Assembly: GCA_030425385.1 (NCBI GenBank)
Contig: JAUIAH010000022.1
Span: 1 to 64,000 of the forward strand
Origin: Verrucomicrobiia bacterium
GTDB lineage: Bacteria > Verrucomicrobiota > Verrucomicrobiia > Verrucomicrobiales > DEV007
Direction of reading: 5' to 3'
Length of the DNA stretch: 64,000 bases
Made by a program: the position numbers and the translations under genes
Notes under the pieces: generated by a model
What the model saw: the letters and a program-made list of their open reading frames with translations, nothing else
What the model was told of the DNA's origin: nothing
Database searches by the model: none
Part shown: piece after piece, positions 21,773 through 48,331 of the stretch
Layout of the letters: each line of letters begins with the position of its first letter
How positions within the stretch are numbered: position 1 is the first letter of the stretch

Positions 21773-22573
21773 CTAGGATTTCGAGGTGGCCGCGCCGATG
21801 ACGTCGATGAGGGTGCCGGGTTTGACGCGGACTCGGTAGTTGGCTGTGAGGTCTTTCCACAAGACACGTCCTTCTTTGTCGAGAATGAAGACGGCGGGTC
21901 GAGCGATGTCTTTTCCCATCAGACCGTTCTCGTGACGGAGGCCGAAGGCATCGATCACCTTGAGGTCTGGATCGGAGAGGATGGGGTAGGTGAGGTCAAG
22001 TTTGGCCACGACCTTGGCATTGGCCTCCGGGGGATCGACACAGATGCCGACAATGTCCGTCTTGAGTGTTTGGAAATCGTGGTAGCGCGACTGCAAGCCT
22101 TGCAGTTCTGAAAGACAGAACGGTCACCAGTGACCACGATAGAAAGACAGGATGAGATAACGCCCGCGAAAGTCTTCCAATCGCACCGTGGAGCCGTCGT
22201 GAGCGGTGAGCGCGAATTCTGGAGACGCCGCCAAGTTCTTGGTGGTGGCAGTCTCTTGAGGGATCTGATAGGAAATGTAGAAGACGTAGAAGAGAAAGAG
22301 TCCTGCGAACAAGGCGGAGGCGGTGAGCAGCAGGCCGTGCCAGACGGAATGTCCGCGTCGTTGTGTTTCACGAGCGATTGCGAATGAGCGCCAGGCAAAT
22401 GTTAGACCGATTCCAATGAGGATCAGATTGAGCCAGGGGAAATCCCGCGTGATGGGGAAGAGGGCGAAGAAGAGGAAGTAGCTGAGACAGCCCACGAGAA
22501 CCAAGGGCAAGCCGAACCAGGCGAGGCGGAGCTTTCGCTGTGGGTTCTCTGAAGACTCGGGCGCGACAGTCAT
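21773..22573 (-). CDS. selenoprotein: membrane-anchored peroxiredoxin-like protein (Sec in U-P-F-C)
   Basis: This gene has an in-frame TGA at 22126-22124. Reading it as Sec gives one 266-residue protein from the ATG at 22573 (4-base ATGA overlap with folA; ATG at 22579 is also possible). Residues about 15-115 contain four hydrophobic helices. From about residue 122 there is an AhpC/TSA-like redoxin domain: L-E-D-F-R-G-R-Y-L-I-L-S-F-Y-R-G-H-W-U150-P-F-C153-L-S-E-L. Cys relatives have C in place of U, so Sec is the attacking residue of a U-x-x-C pair. The domain continues with Y-P-I-L-S-D-P and R-P-A-V-F-I-L-D. A hairpin with loop GGC lies 25 bases past the TGA. It probably reduces peroxides or disulfides at the membrane. 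Operon: thyA-folA-this gene. Confidence 0.85.
22091..22126 (-). promoter_or_regulatory. candidate bacterial SECIS element (redoxin gene)
   Basis: On the minus strand the TGA at 22126-22124 is followed by two hairpins. The first is TTCTG/CAGAA (22120-22116 with 22110-22106). The second is CTGCAA/TTGCAG (22105-22100 with 22096-22091) with the loop GGC. The second loop begins 25 bases after the TGA and has G in its first positions, which fits the general rule for bacterial SECIS elements. The structure was found by eye and not scored. Confidence 0.6.
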
Positions 22574-23073
22574 GAGCATTCCGGACGACGCACGTAGCGA
22601 CGCACGTCAAAGTCTGGGAAGGTAGTCAGGGTTTCGTCAAAGACAAAAGCTTCTTCGAATGGTGGCATGAAGGTATCGCCCTCATAGGCCTGATGCACGT
22701 GCGTGAGAATGAGAGAGGCGCACGTCTGCAGATAGGCATCGAAGACGCGGGCGCCACCGATGAGGTAGGCGTCGCCGGTCACGCCGAGATCGATCAATCC
22801 CTGAAGGTCCGCGATGATCTCCACTCCAGGAACCGGCGTGAGGGTGCGGCTCAGAACGATGTTGCGGCGCTTGGGCAGCGGGCGTTTAGGCAGGGATTCG
22901 AACGTCGCGCGGCCCATGATGATCGGGTGCCCTAAGGTGCGTTCCTTGAAAAGCTTGAGGTCTTGGGGTAAGTGCCAGGGCAAGGTGCCGTCACGACCAA
23001 TGACGCGATTGGAGGCCATGGCGACGAGTGCATGGAGATGAATGCCCACGCGGGTGAGATCGCCGTGTGTCAT
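22570..23073 (-). CDS. folA: dihydrofolate reductase
   Basis: A 167-residue enzyme that reduces dihydrofolate to tetrahydrofolate with NADPH in the cytoplasm. Family motifs are clear: A-S-N-R-V-I-G-R-D-G-T-L-P-W-H-L-P-x-D (Met20-loop region), I-I-M-G-R-A-T-F-E-S-L, R-R-N-I-V-L-S-R and A-Y-L-I-G-G-A-R-V-F. It lies between thyA (21 bases upstream) and the selenoprotein redoxin (4-base overlap), so the three genes probably share a transcript. Pairing with thyA is functionally sensible, because ThyA consumes methylene-tetrahydrofolate and yields dihydrofolate. Confidence 0.93.
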   Translation of the reverse strand: MTHGDLTRVGIHLHALVAMASNRVIGRDGTLPWHLPQDLKLFKERTLGHPIIMGRATFESLPKRPLPKRRNIVLSRTLTPVPGVEIIADLQGLIDLGVTGDAYLIGGARVFDAYLQTCASLILTHVHQAYEGDTFMPPFEEAFVFDETLTTFPDFDVRRYVRRPECS

Positions 23074-37295: not shown

Positions 37296-39641
<2,346 letters not shown>

Positions 39642-40308: not shown

Positions 40309-40416
40309 CGGTGATTCGAACGGAGGAAATGCCTGAGGTCAACTAGGATCACGCGGATGGCTTTCTGTTCGACTGGCCGATCTTGCCAACAACACTGGTC
40401 ACTGCTATGCGATGGC

Positions 40417-43400
40417 ATGCGTGCGGTCCTTTGGCTGGCCCTTCTCTTTCCCACGGTCTTCCTGACGGGCTGTGGCCATGAGTCGGAAGAGAAGACTCCC
40501 GAGCCGCCGATGTCGGGGTCTCGTCTCGATGCCAATGAGATGGTGAAGCTTTCCGCGAAATCCATTCTCCGTGATGTGGAATGGACCGTGCCTTCCTTCC
40601 AGAATGACGATTCCTGGCGACGCCCGCCCGAGCCTTCACCTAACATTGATCCTGGTCGCGAGTGGGAAACGGAGGAGATAAGCACCCGTGTGGCGGCGTA
40701 TCTAAAGCGTTGGCTCACGGAAGAAGTGAGCAGCGTTCGGCCGGATGAAACAGCGTGGGTATCACAACTCGCTACCGTCTTCGAGAATGAAGGCACCGAG
40801 GTGAGACGTTTGCAGGAGCCGATGGCGCCATTCCAGCAAGATGATTCTTCGTTAGAGTTTCTCTACGCGCGCTTTCATTCGCCCCCGCGAGCAGCGGTCA
40901 AGATGGTAGGAATCACGCCTCCCAATGCTCAGGGCGAACCCTTTCTGACAGAGTCCTTGATGGAATGGTTTGGGCAGACGGCTGCAGGGAAGCGGCGCCA
41001 GATCAATGCGCGATGGCAGTGTCAGTGGAGCGTTGAGCAAGACTTGCGTTTGCAAGCGATCACGGTCCTGACTTTGGAAGAGGTGACGTCGTCGCCCTGG
41101 TTCAATGAAAGCACGGCGTCTGTTCTGAGAGAGGTGGCGACCGCACCAATCGTCACGGGGATCGAGTTCTGGAGCCAACGGGTGACGCGGTATGGCGATC
41201 TTTACCAGACGGGACATCATGGCTTGGCGGTGGGCGATGTGAACGGGGATGGGCGAGAAGACGTCTATGTGTGTGATGGTGGTAGCCTACCCAATCGCCT
41301 CTACCTCCAGCAACCCGATGGGTCGGTGAAAGAGGTCTCGGCCGAGGCGGGAGTCGACTTCCTCGAGGATTCGCGAGGAGCGCTCCTGGTGGATTGGGAT
41401 AACGATGGAGATCAGGATCTCGCGGTGGCGACCGTGGCCATGATCGTCTTTTGTGAGAATGATGGGAAGGGAAACTTCACCTTGCGCGGCGGACACATGG
41501 GGGCACCCTATCCGGCATCGATCAGCGCGGCGGATGTGGATGTGGATGGTGACGTGGATCTCTTTGTATGTGTGTATGAGGGAATGGGGAATGCGCGATC
41601 AGTGGGACAAGGATTCCAAGCGCGCACTCCCACGCCTTTCCACGATGCGGAGAACGGCGGCCCTAACATCTTGTTGGAAAACTTGGGTGACTTTCAGTTT
41701 GTCGATAGCACGTCGGCGTTTGGTCTGGATCTAGGCAATGCACGCTGGAGCTTTGCGGCGGCTTGGGACGACATGGATCGGGATGGCGATCCTGACTTGT
41801 ATGTGGCCAATGATTTCGGGAGGAACCAACTCTATCGCAATGATCGAACACCCGCGGGTGGGCGACGCTTGGTCAACATCGCTCACGAAGTCGGCGTGGA
41901 GGATCGCGCTGCCGGGATGTCGGTGGCTTGGGGAGACTACAATCGCGATGGCTCGCCGGACCTCTACGTAGGCAACATGTATTCGTCGGCAGGGCACCGG
42001 ATCGCCTATCAGCGCGCCTTTGTGCGTGAGCGAGATGAGAAGGCTTTGTTAGGAACGCAGCGGATGGCTCGGGGGAACACGCTCTTTGCGGGGAGCGATG
42101 GAGCCTTCGATGATGTGAGCGTCCCTGCGGGGGTCACGATGGGTCGATGGGCCTGGAGTTCGGCCTTTGCGGATCTCAACAACGATGGGTGGGAGGATCT
42201 GCTCGTGGCCAATGGTTACCTGACGAATCACCGCGAAGATGACTTGTGAAGTTTCTTCTGGCGACAGGTCGTGTCGCCATCCCCGTCAGCCCCGGTGCTG
42301 AATGAAGCCTACGTGCAGGGTTGGCATGCCATGATGGAACTGGTGACCAAGGGGCATTCCTGGAGTGGGCGCGAACGCCACGTGTGCTATCTCAATGAAG
42401 GCACTGGCAGATTCGCCAATGTGTCTGCGGTCAGTGGGATCGATTTCCCAGACGACGGTCGTGCGCTGGGCTTCGTGGATTGGGATGATGATGGAGACCT
42501 CGATGTCTGGCTCCGGAATCGGACCGCTCCGAGATTACGCTTCTTACAGAATGACATACAGTCGGAAGCGCATACGGTGATGCTGACGTTGGAGGGGCGC
42601 ACTTGCAATCGCGATGCTATTGGGGCTGTGGTGGAAATGCGTGTTGCGGGCCAACCGGGACTACTCTCACGGTCCGTTAAGGCAGGTGATCTCTTTCTCT
42701 CTCAGTCGAGCAAACGGCTCCACTTCGGATTAGGCAACGCGTCCCCTCCTGAGAAGGTGCGGGTTCTCTGGCCTGGACAGACGTCATGGGAAGTCGTCGA
42801 AGGGATCACGGGCACGGGGCACTATCATCTTCGTCAAGGAGAAAGGCGAGCAGAGATCAGAGAAGTCTTGACTAGGCCAGAGCAAATGGCGGGCGGACTG
42901 ATGCCTGGACCGACCTCGGCGCGGGCGGTGGTGCGGCTTCCCGTGCCCATCCCGTTGCTACCGTCCTTCCGCTATCGGGATCAGGCCATGCAACGAAAGA
43001 CCCTGACGAATGCCGCAAAGTCGCGTCTGATCGTGCTCTGGTCGAGTGCTTGCCCTGCGTGTGTGCGCTCGCTTCCCGCGCTGAGGGGGCTCGCCGATGA
43101 TAGGTTTAGTGTTCTCGCGTTGTGTGTGGATCCCGTGGAGCAGGCGCAAGATGCCTATGCCTTCATGGAGACGGTGGCTTGGCCGCACCCGTGGGGATTT
43201 CTGGAACCTGACATGGTGGCGAAACTGGATCTCTTCCAATCCGCGCCCTTTGATCGAGCGATTCCCTTGGCCACCCCGACGGCCTTTCTCGTGAACGCGC
43301 AGCAAGACGTGCTGGCGATCTATCGTGGTCTCGAAGATACAGAACGGATCCGTGAAGACGCCGCAACCCTGCCAGCCATGGACGGCGAATCTCGGCATCA

Positions 43401-43830
43401 TCTGGCGCCGCCCTTCGCGGGGCGTTGGTTCACCAATCCGGTGCCTCCTGGATTCGTGATGGAAGACGTGGCTCGGCGACTCCAAGAGCGTTTCCCGGAG
43501 GATGCGCTGCCTTACCTCCACCTCGCGTATGAACAGGCGCAGACAGCGGCTAAGAAGGAGGCGCTTCGGTTAGAGCTGGGTGCTCGGCATCAGCAATGGG
43601 CGCAGCAAGCCGCTGAATCGGGTTCACCCAAACAGGCGCAGGCAGCCTTTGCCCAGGCCGTCCGCTATCTGCCTGAGTCTGCTGCCCTGCATCACAACTA
43701 CGGCGTCTTCCTGGCCGAGTATGGCCAGGAAGATGGGGCGCGCCAATTGCTCCAGCGTGCCTTGCAGCTGAAGCCCGATTCCGAAGCGACGCAGGCAGCA
43801 CTGCGTTTGTTAGAGCAACGTGCCGATTAG
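40417..43830 (+). CDS. selenoprotein: FG-GAP/UnbV lipoprotein with thioredoxin-like domain and TPRs
   Basis: An in-frame TGA at 42247-42249 separates two same-frame parts that homology joins into one 1137-residue protein with Sec611. A lipobox (L-T-G-C, start at 40417) marks a lipoprotein. FG-GAP/VCBS repeats run from about 265 to 605 (D-V-N-G-D-G, D-W-D-N-D-G-D, D-L-N-N-D-G). Next comes the linker G-Y-L-T-N-H-R-E-D-D-L-U611-S-F-F-W-R-Q-V-V, which family members keep without a break. Then come the ASPIC/UnbV domain (to about 810), a TlpA-like thioredoxin domain with C879-P-A-C882, and two or three TPRs. Directly after the TGA is a perfect 8-bp hairpin with loop GGTCG. Role unknown; probably a surface redox or adhesion protein. 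Confidence 0.8.
42247..42279 (+). promoter_or_regulatory. candidate bacterial SECIS element (UnbV gene)
   Basis: The TGA at 42247-42249 is followed by TGGCGACA (42259-42266), loop GGTCG (42267-42271) and TGTCGCCA (42272-42279). The arms pair perfectly over eight bases. The loop begins 18 bases after the TGA and opens GGTC, as in the Escherichia coli fdhF SECIS loop, whose G and U contact SelB. It is the most regular of the three hairpins in this window. Confidence 0.7.
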
Positions 43831-43832
43831 TG

Positions 43833-46800
43833 TCAGGGCGTTTGTAGGCGATAGAATCCGCCGTCTGCGCCTGTTCGCGTGGCGTCGGTGTCTTCATAGC
43901 TCCCAGCTGTGACGTCCGTGGCGATGACTTCCCAGGAATCGGGGGAGAGGTCGAGTGAGTGGGCGACCTGTTGGGCACCTTCTCCTGTCCAACGGAGGCG
44001 CACGCCATTGGCAGTCCGTTCGACCGTCGTGATCTCTGCGAGCGAGCCCGGTTGCGGATCGCCGCCGCCGCCATCACCAGAGATAAACAGCCGATCGGCG
44101 AAGAACTCCAGACCACTGGATGCGTTGATCGATCCCGAAATGAAGTCCACCGCGGTGAGCACGTTGTTCATGCCATCTCCGGCGATGGCATCACTTGCGA
44201 CGCCAAAGGCGGCGCCATTCGTTCCCGACCAGTCGCCACCGATGTCTTGAGATTCGGATCCCACAGGCTCCCCATCGAGGAAGAGGGCAATGGTTTGCAC
44301 GCCATTGGCGTCATTCACATCATAGGTCCAGATCACCTCGATCTCGCCGGCATCGAGTTGTGCCTGTGTGAGGGTGTGCTCGACGACTGAAAGGGACAGG
44401 CCGCCGTTGCCGTCGGCGCGGTAGACGAGCTTGCCTGGGGCTTCGTAGACCACGCTCATGCCAATGGTGGCGCCGCCAGTCTCAAAGATCAGTTCCCGTT
44501 CAGTATCCTCCTTTGGGGCGAAATCGATGCGTGCTCGGAAGGTGGCGTCTAACAGATCGGCCCCTTCTTCGATGTTGTCGAAGCTCGGAAGCGTTTCGAG
44601 CATGCGCCAGACAAGGGTGGGTTCGCCCAAGCGATCTTCTGGTAAACTAGAGGCATTGTTAGGATCTGATCCCTGAGCGATTTCAAATCCATCGCGAAAG
44701 CCGTCACCATCCGTGTCTGCATTGCCAGGGTCGGTCATCGGATCTCCATTCACTTCGTTCAGATCCGATAGGCCGTCGCCGTCGGTGTCAGCGAGGAGTG
44801 GACTGCTCGGCGGATTGCCATCTACTTCCTCGGCGTCGGAAAGACCATCGCCGTCCGTGTCACTGACATTGGGATCACTGCCTGCCTCATTCACTTCTCG
44901 GCCGTCGGAGAGACCATCGCCATCGCTATCAGCATTTGAAGGATCAGAACCCGCAGCGAATTCTTGCGCCGCCGTCAAGCCGTCGCCGTCGGCATCGCTC
45001 GCCTGGTCTAGGCTGAGATCGCCGATCCGCTCACGTTCCCAGCGGTCTAACAGGCCATCATCATCTGTGTCACCTGTATCGCCGAGGATGGCAAGAATGC
45101 CATCTCCCTTGAGTTGATCCTCACCAAAGCCCACAACGGTGATCAGGACATTCGCGTCGTAGTCATCACCGGCAAGGCTGAAGAGCACATTGCTTTCGTC
45201 TTCCGGAGAGAGCCCGGAGAGAGAGTGGTAGACCCATTCCTGATCCAGGCAGAGGACGAAGTCGCCCCCCACGAATGCCAAGGCGCTTTCCGGCGCATTG
45301 ATATTGTAATCTGCATCGAGTGACCCGTGGACAATCGTCATGTTTCCTGTGCCGAGCGAACCACTCGCCTGCCCGCGCAAGGTGCCCCCGTCGAGTCGCC
45401 AATCGGCGTGGTAGTGACTGCCTGGGCCAGTCAAATGGGTTTCCGCATTGTCGAGGGTATCCACGTCTAACAGATGGGTGATTGTTCCTTCGCCGCTGAT
45501 GGTGCTGGCGAGATCAAAGATCACTCCTTCATTGAGATGCTCAATGGTGAGAGCACCTTCCAGATAGAGAGCACCTGCGATGCGCACGTCTTGACCGATG
45601 CGAAGGGTACCCGCATCACGAATGGTCAACTGCGCGATCTGGGCAGTCCCTGTGTGCCGCAGTTCGAGAGCGGCGTTTCCCGCGAGGACTAAGCTGCCGC
45701 CGCTGAAGGTCGGGCTGTCCATTGAGGGCGTGGATAGGGTTCCTGACAAGCTCCCTACCACGAAGTAGTCTTTGTCAGGGGAAGGTGCTTGGCCATCAGC
45801 CCAGATGGCGGGCGTGTTCCAGTCTTCCCCACCGCCAGGCGCGCGCGTCAGTAAGATGGCCGTGGCAGGTGGCGCACTGGCGTTGTCCGTAGGATCCGTG
45901 GCCAAGGCGAGTTCCACATCATCGCGGAAGCCGTCGTCGTCGGTGTCTTCTTTGCCCGGTGCCGTGCCTAACATCGTGACCTCTCGGCCATCGTCCAGGC
46001 CATCGCCGTCGCTATCAACGACGATGGGATTGCTTTGATAGGTATTCACTTCATCGCCGTCGCTGAGGCCATCGTCATCACTGTCAGGATCATCTGGACG
46101 TGCGCCGGACTCGAACTCGCCTCGATTGGAGAGACCATCGTTGTCCGCGTCTTGGTTCGCCGTGGCGTTGGTGTTGCCAAAGAAACGGACCTCCCAGAAA
46201 TCGAGTAGGCCATCATTGTCCGCATCGTCCTCGCCTTCCACGGCGAGCTTGCGAAAGGCTTGGTCCACCTCGGCCGTGGAGAGGGTGCGTTCATATACTT
46301 TCAGTATCGCGATCTCTCCGGTGAACTGCGTGGTGAACTCGGGTTCATTGCCACCGCTGCCACCGAGGGCGCCCGCGATGCCTGCGGAGAAGTTGCTATG
46401 ACTGAAGAGGGTGGCTCTTCCCACGGGAATGCCAATGGCGCCACTTCCCATCATGCTTGCCTGCCCGCCACCGGCACCCCGGACAAAGAGGGTTGCCGTG
46501 CTGTTGGTGTCATCGAGAGCCGCCACGATCTGGACGTAGTCATCCGTATTGATCTGTAAGAGTGAGACGTCGAGATCGATGGTGCGCGAACCGCCAGAGC
46601 TGTGAATGAGTCGAAGGGAATCGGTGGTGGCTAGAATTCCGGTCCCGTCGCCACCGCCTCCCGTCTCAAAGATGACTTGATGTGAGGGGGCTTCGAGAAA
46701 GTCTCCCAAGCGCACCCACAACTCGTAAGTGGTGTTTCCGCCAGGGAATCCATTGCCGTTATCGGATCCCGTATCGTTATTAAACGTGAGCATGCGATGG

Positions 46801-48254
46801 GCTCGCGTGATGGTGGTCCGCGCACTTGTCACCTCTGCTAGTTCGCCATTCTTCACATCCCAGTTGGCTGTGCCCACGGCGTCTTTCAAGGCGCCGTCTG
46901 TCTGGTCCGCCGCATCGGCCTCGTAGAGATTGATGATCGCTGCTTCTAACGCGTTCACGGTGACGGAAACATCGCGGCTTGTGGAACCATTGCCGTTGGA
47001 AGCCGTAAGCTTGTAGGAAGTGGTTTCGTCAGGATTCACAGGCATCGCCCCGCTGGAAGCCACGACACCCAGTCCGGGCTCGATACTGACAGCATCGGCT
47101 CCCGCGACTTCCCAGCGAAGCACGGTCTCGCCACCGGGGGCGACGAGTTCTGGCGTAGCCGTGAAGCGTTGCACCAGTGGCACGCCATCGACCACCACCG
47201 TCAACGGCTGCGTGGTCGTCACGCCATTGAAATCGACCGTCAAGGTGTAGGTGGTGGTTTCGCTAGGAGAGACGGCCACGCTACCGGCGTTTCCAATCGT
47301 CATGCCGGTGACATCCCCCACGCCTTGATCGATGGTGATGCTCGTGAACTTATCGACCTGCCAAGATAGCGTCGCTTCCTCGCCGGAGGCGATAAGAACG
47401 GGATCGGCGTTGAAGGCCTCTACCTTGGGGCGCGCATCCGTTGAGGTGAGGGTGATGGTGAGCAGATCGGCATTCCCAGAACCGTAGTCGACTGCGAACT
47501 CGAAGCCTTGCGCATTCACAAAAGATGTCCCCTGAGCGAACTGGCCTGTTAGGCTGGTATACTCCATCAACGTCCAGGAATCGCCGACCGCGAAATCGCC
47601 ATTCAACGTGATCTGCAAGGTCGCGCCCGGATCGATGTCAACATTCAACCCGCTGGTGTTGGCGCGCTTCATCGTCGCCACCTGAGAGCCCTCGATGATA
47701 AAGGAGAGCGTGCCGTTGGGGCCAATGGGAGAACGGTTGTCTAACTGATTGAACTTCGCGTTGATCCCGGTGGGACGCATTTCGAGGGTGCCGTTGAGTA
47801 ACTCGAAGAATTTGAAATTCAGGAGCTCTCCGGCCACGATCACGGTTCCGGTTCCTCCTTCATCGTCTCCGATCCTAACGGTCATGCCACCTCCTTGGGA
47901 GCGGAATGCTGCTCCTTCGTCGATGATGAGTGTGCCGTTGCCGCCAGCTCCGACCCCGACATAGATGCCTTGATTGCCGCCGTGAGCCCCGCTCAAGGTT
48001 CCTCCACTGACGGTCAGCGCCCCTTCGGTTCCAGTGCCAATCTCAATCCGTCCTGGATTCAGGGAATTCTGTGAGACAATGTCTTCATCGATGACGGCTG
48101 ATCCGTTGACGATTGCGATGGCATTGTCAGTGGGCACGCCACCGTCCCAGCGAGCTTCATCGAGCCAATTACCCGTCCCCGTGAACGTTGTTTGGCCTCG
48201 AAGCGTGGGAGGGATACATAAAAGGAAGAGGAGGAATGCTAGTCGAAGGTTCAT
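43833..48254 (-). CDS. large secreted protein with thrombospondin type 3-like calcium repeats
   Basis: About 1473 residues from the ATG at 48254 (signal peptide L-A-F-L-L-F-L-L-C-I-P). In order: a beta-helix-like stretch (to about 250) of the autotransporter-adhesin kind; two Ig-like segments, each with S-W-Q-V or R-W-E-V; a LamG/concanavalin-like domain (about 450-660); thrombospondin type 3 repeats (D-x-D-x-D-G-L-S-D-G-D-E-V); a second beta stretch; another set of those repeats; a second LamG-like domain; and a short final strand domain. The acidic repeats bind calcium. It is probably a cell-surface or secreted adhesin or matrix protein. No PEP-CTERM-type tail was seen. Confidence 0.7.
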   Translation of the reverse strand: MNLRLAFLLFLLCIPPTLRGQTTFTGTGNWLDEARWDGGVPTDNAIAIVNGSAVIDEDIVSQNSLNPGRIEIGTGTEGALTVSGGTLSGAHGGNQGIYVGVGAGGNGTLIIDEGAAFRSQGGGMTVRIGDDEGGTGTVIVAGELLNFKFFELLNGTLEMRPTGINAKFNQLDNRSPIGPNGTLSFIIEGSQVATMKRANTSGLNVDIDPGATLQITLNGDFAVGDSWTLMEYTSLTGQFAQGTSFVNAQGFEFAVDYGSGNADLLTITLTSTDARPKVEAFNADPVLIASGEEATLSWQVDKFTSITIDQGVGDVTGMTIGNAGSVAVSPSETTTYTLTVDFNGVTTTQPLTVVVDGVPLVQRFTATPELVAPGGETVLRWEVAGADAVSIEPGLGVVASSGAMPVNPDETTSYKLTASNGNGSTSRDVSVTVNALEAAIINLYEADAADQTDGALKDAVGTANWDVKNGELAEVTSARTTITRAHRMLTFNNDTGSDNGNGFPGGNTTYELWVRLGDFLEAPSHQVIFETGGGGDGTGILATTDSLRLIHSSGGSRTIDLDVSLLQINTDDYVQIVAALDDTNSTATLFVRGAGGGQASMMGSGAIGIPVGRATLFSHSNFSAGIAGALGGSGGNEPEFTTQFTGEIAILKVYERTLSTAEVDQAFRKLAVEGEDDADNDGLLDFWEVRFFGNTNATANQDADNDGLSNRGEFESGARPDDPDSDDDGLSDGDEVNTYQSNPIVVDSDGDGLDDGREVTMLGTAPGKEDTDDDGFRDDVELALATDPTDNASAPPATAILLTRAPGGGEDWNTPAIWADGQAPSPDKDYFVVGSLSGTLSTPSMDSPTFSGGSLVLAGNAALELRHTGTAQIAQLTIRDAGTLRIGQDVRIAGALYLEGALTIEHLNEGVIFDLASTISGEGTITHLLDVDTLDNAETHLTGPGSHYHADWRLDGGTLRGQASGSLGTGNMTIVHGSLDADYNINAPESALAFVGGDFVLCLDQEWVYHSLSGLSPEDESNVLFSLAGDDYDANVLITVVGFGEDQLKGDGILAILGDTGDTDDDGLLDRWERERIGDLSLDQASDADGDGLTAAQEFAAGSDPSNADSDGDGLSDGREVNEAGSDPNVSDTDGDGLSDAEEVDGNPPSSPLLADTDGDGLSDLNEVNGDPMTDPGNADTDGDGFRDGFEIAQGSDPNNASSLPEDRLGEPTLVWRMLETLPSFDNIEEGADLLDATFRARIDFAPKEDTERELIFETGGATIGMSVVYEAPGKLVYRADGNGGLSLSVVEHTLTQAQLDAGEIEVIWTYDVNDANGVQTIALFLDGEPVGSESQDIGGDWSGTNGAAFGVASDAIAGDGMNNVLTAVDFISGSINASSGLEFFADRLFISGDGGGGDPQPGSLAEITTVERTANGVRLRWTGEGAQQVAHSLDLSPDSWEVIATDVTAGSYEDTDATRTGADGGFYRLQTP

Positions 48255-48331
48255 AGAGTGGGTCTTCAGGATTTCCACTCTTATAAATGGCCCCCACCTC
48301 CGTTGACCAGCCAAACCCGCTCTCCGACAGC

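Follow-up and report, generated by a model that had tools for sequence, protein, structure and literature searches.

A putative selenoprotein family of Verrucomicrobiota, Planctomycetota and Acidobacteriota with a predicted selenocysteine in an FG-GAP/UnbV propeller

The window, i.e. the whole stretch of DNA that was analysed (64,000 nucleotides, contig C28), belongs to a genome of 8.0 Mb that is 95.5% complete. On the forward strand, the frame from bp 40417 to 43830 is open except for one in-frame stop codon, the TGA at 42247–42249, in agreement with the preliminary description of this DNA, which held that this TGA splits a single frame. Standard gene calling yields two ORFs instead, 40357–42249 and 42271–43830. 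Since the ORF listing places a further ATG upstream, at 40357, the start at 40417 is one that we infer; it gives a lipoprotein signal peptide ending in LTGC. The following features were recognised, all on the + strand:

40417–43830, +: candidate selenoprotein ORF of 1137 residues with the TGA read as selenocysteine (Sec611) and a TAG stop (frame reading; full-length homologues)
40417–40473, +: lipoprotein signal peptide MRAVLWLALLFPTVFLTGC, lipobox LTGC, Cys19 (sequence; lipobox-like motif in homologues)
41188–42576 (approximate boundaries), +: FG-GAP beta-propeller, CRTAC1-like, with the predicted Sec in an inserted segment (Pfam, profile, Foldseek)
42247–42249, +: UGA codon, probably read as selenocysteine (Sec611), in the first turn of helix 610–619 of the model
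42259–42279, +: bacterial SECIS (bSECIS) hairpin, 8-bp stem, loop GGUCG, 17 nt past the UGA (folding, model fit, covariation)
42616–42783, +: UnbV_ASPIC domain (Pfam PF07593, 46.9 bits, cut-off 23.4)
42925–43386 (boundaries from the secondary structure of the model), +: TlpA/ResA-like thioredoxin domain (profile, Foldseek, CxxC conservation)
43447–43824, +: C-terminal TPR helices (Pfam TPR_19, 28.1 bits; model helices 1011–1136)

The frame had been described as a 1137-residue FG-GAP/UnbV lipoprotein, and the domain searches bore this out. Besides the signal peptide with its LTGC lipobox, the FG-GAP repeats (Pfam FG-GAP_3, 126.6 bits) and the UnbV_ASPIC domain both scored above the curated cut-offs, which places the protein in the CRTAC1/UnbV FG-GAP family. 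The propeller matched murine CRTAC1 (9etn) by profile (E 2.4e-24) and by Foldseek (E 6.6e-23, TM(target) 0.72). A lipobox-like motif near the N-terminus was present in 19 of the 33 homologous ORFs with a frame that stayed inside the upstream limit of the locus. The C-terminal part contains a thioredoxin fold with the CxxC motif CPAC (residues 879–882, bp 43051–43062), a TlpA-type domain within a larger chain, with matches to TlpA 1jfu (profile, E 3.1e-16) and TlpA 4txv (Foldseek, E 5e-7). The AlphaFold model had a mean pLDDT of 85 and a pTM of 0.84.

The preliminary description had proposed to look for Cys or TGA at this position in homologues, and both were found. A search of 57 related genomes revealed more than 100 homologues with an in-frame TGA, and in the 100 loci inspected the TGA occupied exactly this codon, within a D-L-U-S-x-x-W-R-x-V-type motif. 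Downstream of the TGA the protein homology continued, with 30–52% identity in the aligned C-terminal part. In a codon-blind search of named genomes, in which the query consisted only of the part after the TGA codon, the best 80 loci were inspected; 79 had TGA at this position, one had TCG (Ser) and none had TAA or TAG. The two sets of loci overlap and together comprise 168 distinct TGA loci, from Verrucomicrobiota (Roseibacillus, Akkermansiaceae, Verrucomicrobiales), Planctomycetota and Acidobacteriota.

A sister subfamily with the motif FWCHD (L035, L055, L056, L145–L148 and L150–L153) had Cys at the Sec site in all 11 loci. Its members have a second Cys at position +5 (C-x4-C, CxxFWCHD), where 166 of the 168 Sec forms have Arg. 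An in-frame TGA in L056 was considered as a Sec codon and rejected, as it is the normal stop of that gene. A maximum-likelihood tree placed the Cys forms in one group and split the Sec forms into a main and a smaller group; the verrucomicrobial and planctomycete sequences were intermixed, which indicates horizontal transfer, ancient duplication, or both. The Ser (TCG) form (L202, bacterium isolate Bpl_9) was the only such member of the main Sec clade among the loci inspected, and the same genome also carries a TGA copy (L205).

Directly downstream of the TGA, a perfect 8-bp hairpin had been noted, and it was located at 42259–42279, where the stem arms TGGCGACA and TGTCGCCA flank the loop GGTCG. 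The 46-nt fold has a minimum free energy (MFE) of –14.8 kcal/mol (z –2.2). The published bSECIS model demands a loop of 3–9 nt, a stem of 4–16 bp, a spacing of 16–37 nt, an MFE of –7.5 or lower and a G within the first two positions of the loop (PMC13188914). The locus studied (L017) satisfied this model with a loop of 5, a stem of 8, a spacing of 17 and –12.8 kcal/mol; the distance from the TGA to the start of the loop, 17 nt, had correctly been judged suitable beforehand. Eleven TGA codons in the window split open frames so that both halves have 100 codons or more, and only the one at 42247 is followed by a hairpin within these constraints. The model was satisfied in 131 of 179 loci, compared to 40 of 892 control in-frame positions (4.5%) and none of the 11 Cys homologues; the remaining 48 of the 179 loci failed the strict hairpin model plus energy cut-off. 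An Rfam search of the window gave no matches.

Scoring of the hairpin with a bacterial SECIS predictor had also been proposed, and in addition to the fit to the model the stem was found to covary. Expressed as counts, not as probabilities, since the related sequences are not independent, 85.8% of the cells of the 8-bp stem were paired in 36 varied sequences, versus 77.7% in shuffled and 27–75% in slid controls, and 22 stem cells were changed on both sides, versus 4.4 in the shuffles. Among the compensatory swaps, an A-U pair became C-G or G-C at the third stem position counted from the loop, and G-C at the loop-closing pair; G and U were at loop positions two and three in 100 of 100 sequences. 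Synonymous codon use, likewise to be read as counts of related sequences, was biased: the Val codon at +7 was GTC in 150 of 168 TGA loci (versus 35% of the Val codons in the rest of these genes) and the Ser codon at +9 was TCG in 118 of 124 (22% elsewhere in these genes). Compared to synonymous recodings, the folding energy of the individual sequences was weakly low (mean z –0.94; 16% in the lowest 5%), and covariation and codon bias are stronger tests than this per-sequence energy. We also observed that TTG directly preceded the TGA in 145 of the 168 Sec loci and that the Ser codon after it was mostly AGT; this context bias at codons –1 and +1 lies outside the hairpin and is unexplained by the SECIS model.

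The genome was also searched for selA, selB, selC and selD, as had been suggested, and all four were present: a tRNA-Sec with a UCA anticodon (65.1 bits), SelB (TIGR00475, 284.5 bits, cut-off 242), SelA (490.6 bits) and SelD (361.2 bits). The SelD gene (L157, G000:C23:120876–121799, – strand) is itself Sec-encoded: an in-frame TGA lies within its CGUAAK motif (KTCGUAAKID). The genetic code is not reassigned, since TGA acts as a normal stop in this genome, where it ends for instance the paralogues L048–L053. Among the 57 genomes, 16 had TGA copies and SelB, 3 had TGA copies without SelB, 6 had SelB only and 32 had neither (Fisher p = 8e-7, merely indicative as the genomes share ancestry). The three genomes with TGA copies and no SelB match above the cut-off are drafts, 70–85% complete. 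One genome tallied as SelB-only (G024) does have a TGA copy, locus L046, which strengthens the association.

On the basis of conservation and machinery, the UGA at 42247 almost certainly encodes selenocysteine, as the preliminary description had supposed; the conserved UGA, the Cys counterpart, the covarying bSECIS hairpin and the complete Sec machinery all support that claim. The hairpin directly past the UGA would recruit SelB with Sec-tRNA-Sec, by which the UGA would be decoded as Sec. Judging from the signal peptide, the product would be an extracytoplasmic lipoprotein, in which the CRTAC1-like FG-GAP propeller would be followed by the UnbV/ASPIC domain, the TlpA/ResA-type CxxC thioredoxin domain and the TPRs, and the Sec would be at the N-terminal end of a short helix inserted into the propeller (U-S-F-F-W-R-Q-V). 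There it would most probably react with a substrate (peroxide, disulfide or similar), after which the TlpA-type domain of the same chain may reduce it back. The Sec-less sister subfamily would use the Cys in the same place, together with the second Cys five residues on.

The alternative that the UGA is an ordinary stop, by which the locus would be a pseudogene, the product of a sequencing error or a pair of genes for two proteins, the second restarted at the GTG at 42271, corresponds to the two ORFs of standard gene calling. It is very improbable in view of the 79 TGA codons in the 80 codon-blind loci, never replaced by TAA or TAG, from many independent assemblies and three phyla; moreover the TGA interrupts a conserved motif, the hairpin covaries, synonymous codons are constrained and the sister proteins have Cys at the site. 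That the UGA is read as a different amino acid, through a reassigned code or near-cognate read-through, would account for the open frame and nothing further, and can be practically dismissed: TGA normally ends several paralogues of the same genome (L048–L053), the Sec machinery is complete, the site aligns with Cys and a SECIS-type hairpin lies at the canonical distance.

Two other explanations accept the Sec and differ in its use. The codon could be a selenium-responsive switch, giving a truncated propeller at low selenium and the full chain when selenium is available, each product having a role. The truncated product of 610 residues would indeed keep most of the propeller along with the signal peptide, but it would end inside a propeller segment, just ahead of the conserved WR and SxSGxE motifs, there was no sign of selection for a stable truncated form, and stop-free Cys versions exist, which makes a switch improbable. 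It is also unlikely, though less so, that, instead of catalysing redox chemistry, the Sec coordinates a metal or has a structural or binding function. FG-GAP propellers bind Ca, the CxxFWCHD motif of the Cys subfamily could bind metal, and the fold match 4txv is TlpA bound to the copper protein cytochrome oxidase subunit II. Against this, the Cys-to-Sec difference, the missing Cys at +5 and the fused CxxC domain form the pattern of redox selenoproteins, and selenoproteins of known function are mostly redox enzymes. The same three features, with the second Cys absent from the Sec forms, indicate redox chemistry, and the Sec is probably redox-active. We estimate at roughly 0.8 the probability of the whole explanation, that of a selenoprotein acting as a Sec redox enzyme that carries its own TlpA-type reductant, in an expanded family of three phyla.

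For the TlpA-type domain as the redox partner of the Sec, a role suggested beforehand for the CPAC motif, the sequences tip the balance slightly in favour. Nearly all long copies have a CxxC 252–285 residues C-terminal of the Sec. However, a subclade (L025, L027, L028 and L029) has retained the Sec but carries Ser and other residues where the CxxC would be, and several of the shorter Sec copies are without a CxxC, showing that the TlpA-type CxxC domain is not obligatory.

The number of Sec copies per genome was 9 in the genome studied, 12 in G011, at least 14 in G003 and 17 in G023, even though the latter is 70% complete. As predicted from these sequences, the family is an expanded selenoprotein family common to Verrucomicrobiota, Planctomycetota and Acidobacteriota. 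In a phylum-wide draw of 289 genomes, with 12 candidates scored per genome, it was found in the genome studied only; beyond closer relatives the family is thus sporadic. Selenoprotein counts serve to gauge the selenium need of a lineage, and in individual Verrucomicrobiota genomes this one uncatalogued family accounts for 9 to 17 genes, which are hidden because standard gene calling splits each of them in two. The largest bacterial selenogenome reported in the literature surveyed has 46 genes, all families included (PMC12013277). At about even odds, the propeller-borne Sec, paired with the TlpA-type domain within one chain, may represent an unrecognised class of selenoenzyme whose 9–17 paralogues per genome, as a single non-thioredoxin family, would dominate selenium use in some Verrucomicrobiota and Planctomycetota and be specialised for different extracytoplasmic substrates. 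The many paralogues and the Cys sister clade make the role of the Sec directly testable.

The CRTAC1/UnbV family is not known to contain a selenoprotein, and indeed none of the 119 prokaryotic selenoprotein families in a catalogue of 2026 is an FG-GAP, UnbV or CRTAC entry (PMC13188914). NCBIfam has no model for an FG-GAP/UnbV selenoprotein, and a literature search that covered few subscription journals and preprints found no paper on selenocysteine with FG-GAP or on selenoprotein with UnbV, so that an earlier mention elsewhere is possible. A study of Planctomycetes gives selenoprotein candidates in a supplementary table (PMC4807772). The production route, UGA plus bSECIS, is already known; as far as these searches show, the family, the placement of its Sec within the propeller and the number of paralogues are new. 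In the accessible literature, a Sec in an FG-GAP/UnbV propeller would be without precedent.

The protein shares the FG-GAP propeller and the UnbV/ASPIC domain with the CRTAC1/ASPIC-UnbV proteins, such as murine CRTAC1, for which no Sec is reported in the literature searched. It differs from CRTAC1 in being a predicted bacterial lipoprotein with the putative Sec in an inserted helix and with fused TlpA-type and TPR domains. With the TlpA/ResA thiol-disulfide oxidoreductases it has in common the WxxxCxxC and the invariant later Pro of the C-terminal domain, but here this domain is part of a longer polypeptide, and the Sec would be located in the propeller, not in the CxxC. The UGC-containing TlpA and other Trx-like selenoproteins (PMC13188914) are alike in UGA, bSECIS and thioredoxin-fold domain; their Sec is part of a motif of the Trx fold (UxxC, UGC), whereas here it would lie in the propeller, about 270 residues earlier. 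The Cys subfamily has the same propeller insert and a Cys aligned with the Sec; it differs by its C-x4-C (CxxFWCHD), the absence of a SECIS hairpin (0 of 11) and a low similarity.

An operon partner was not found, as no cluster of neighbours recurred in more than 9 of 80 loci. In the window, the gene just upstream of the candidate selenoprotein gene (37317–39638, +) encodes a peroxidase-family protein of 774 aa, the size of a catalase-peroxidase. A further in-frame TGA, at 22126, is present in a gene of the AhpC/TSA family (21779–22606, –; Pfam 108 bits), in which the motif FYRGHWUPFC (UxxC) spans the TGA. The sequence downstream of this TGA failed the strict bSECIS test; from its motif and family the gene is likely a second selenoprotein, of a known kind. 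Convergent with the candidate selenoprotein gene, 43836–48314 (–) encodes a protein of 1493 residues with bacterial TSP3 repeats and a Laminin_G_3 domain.
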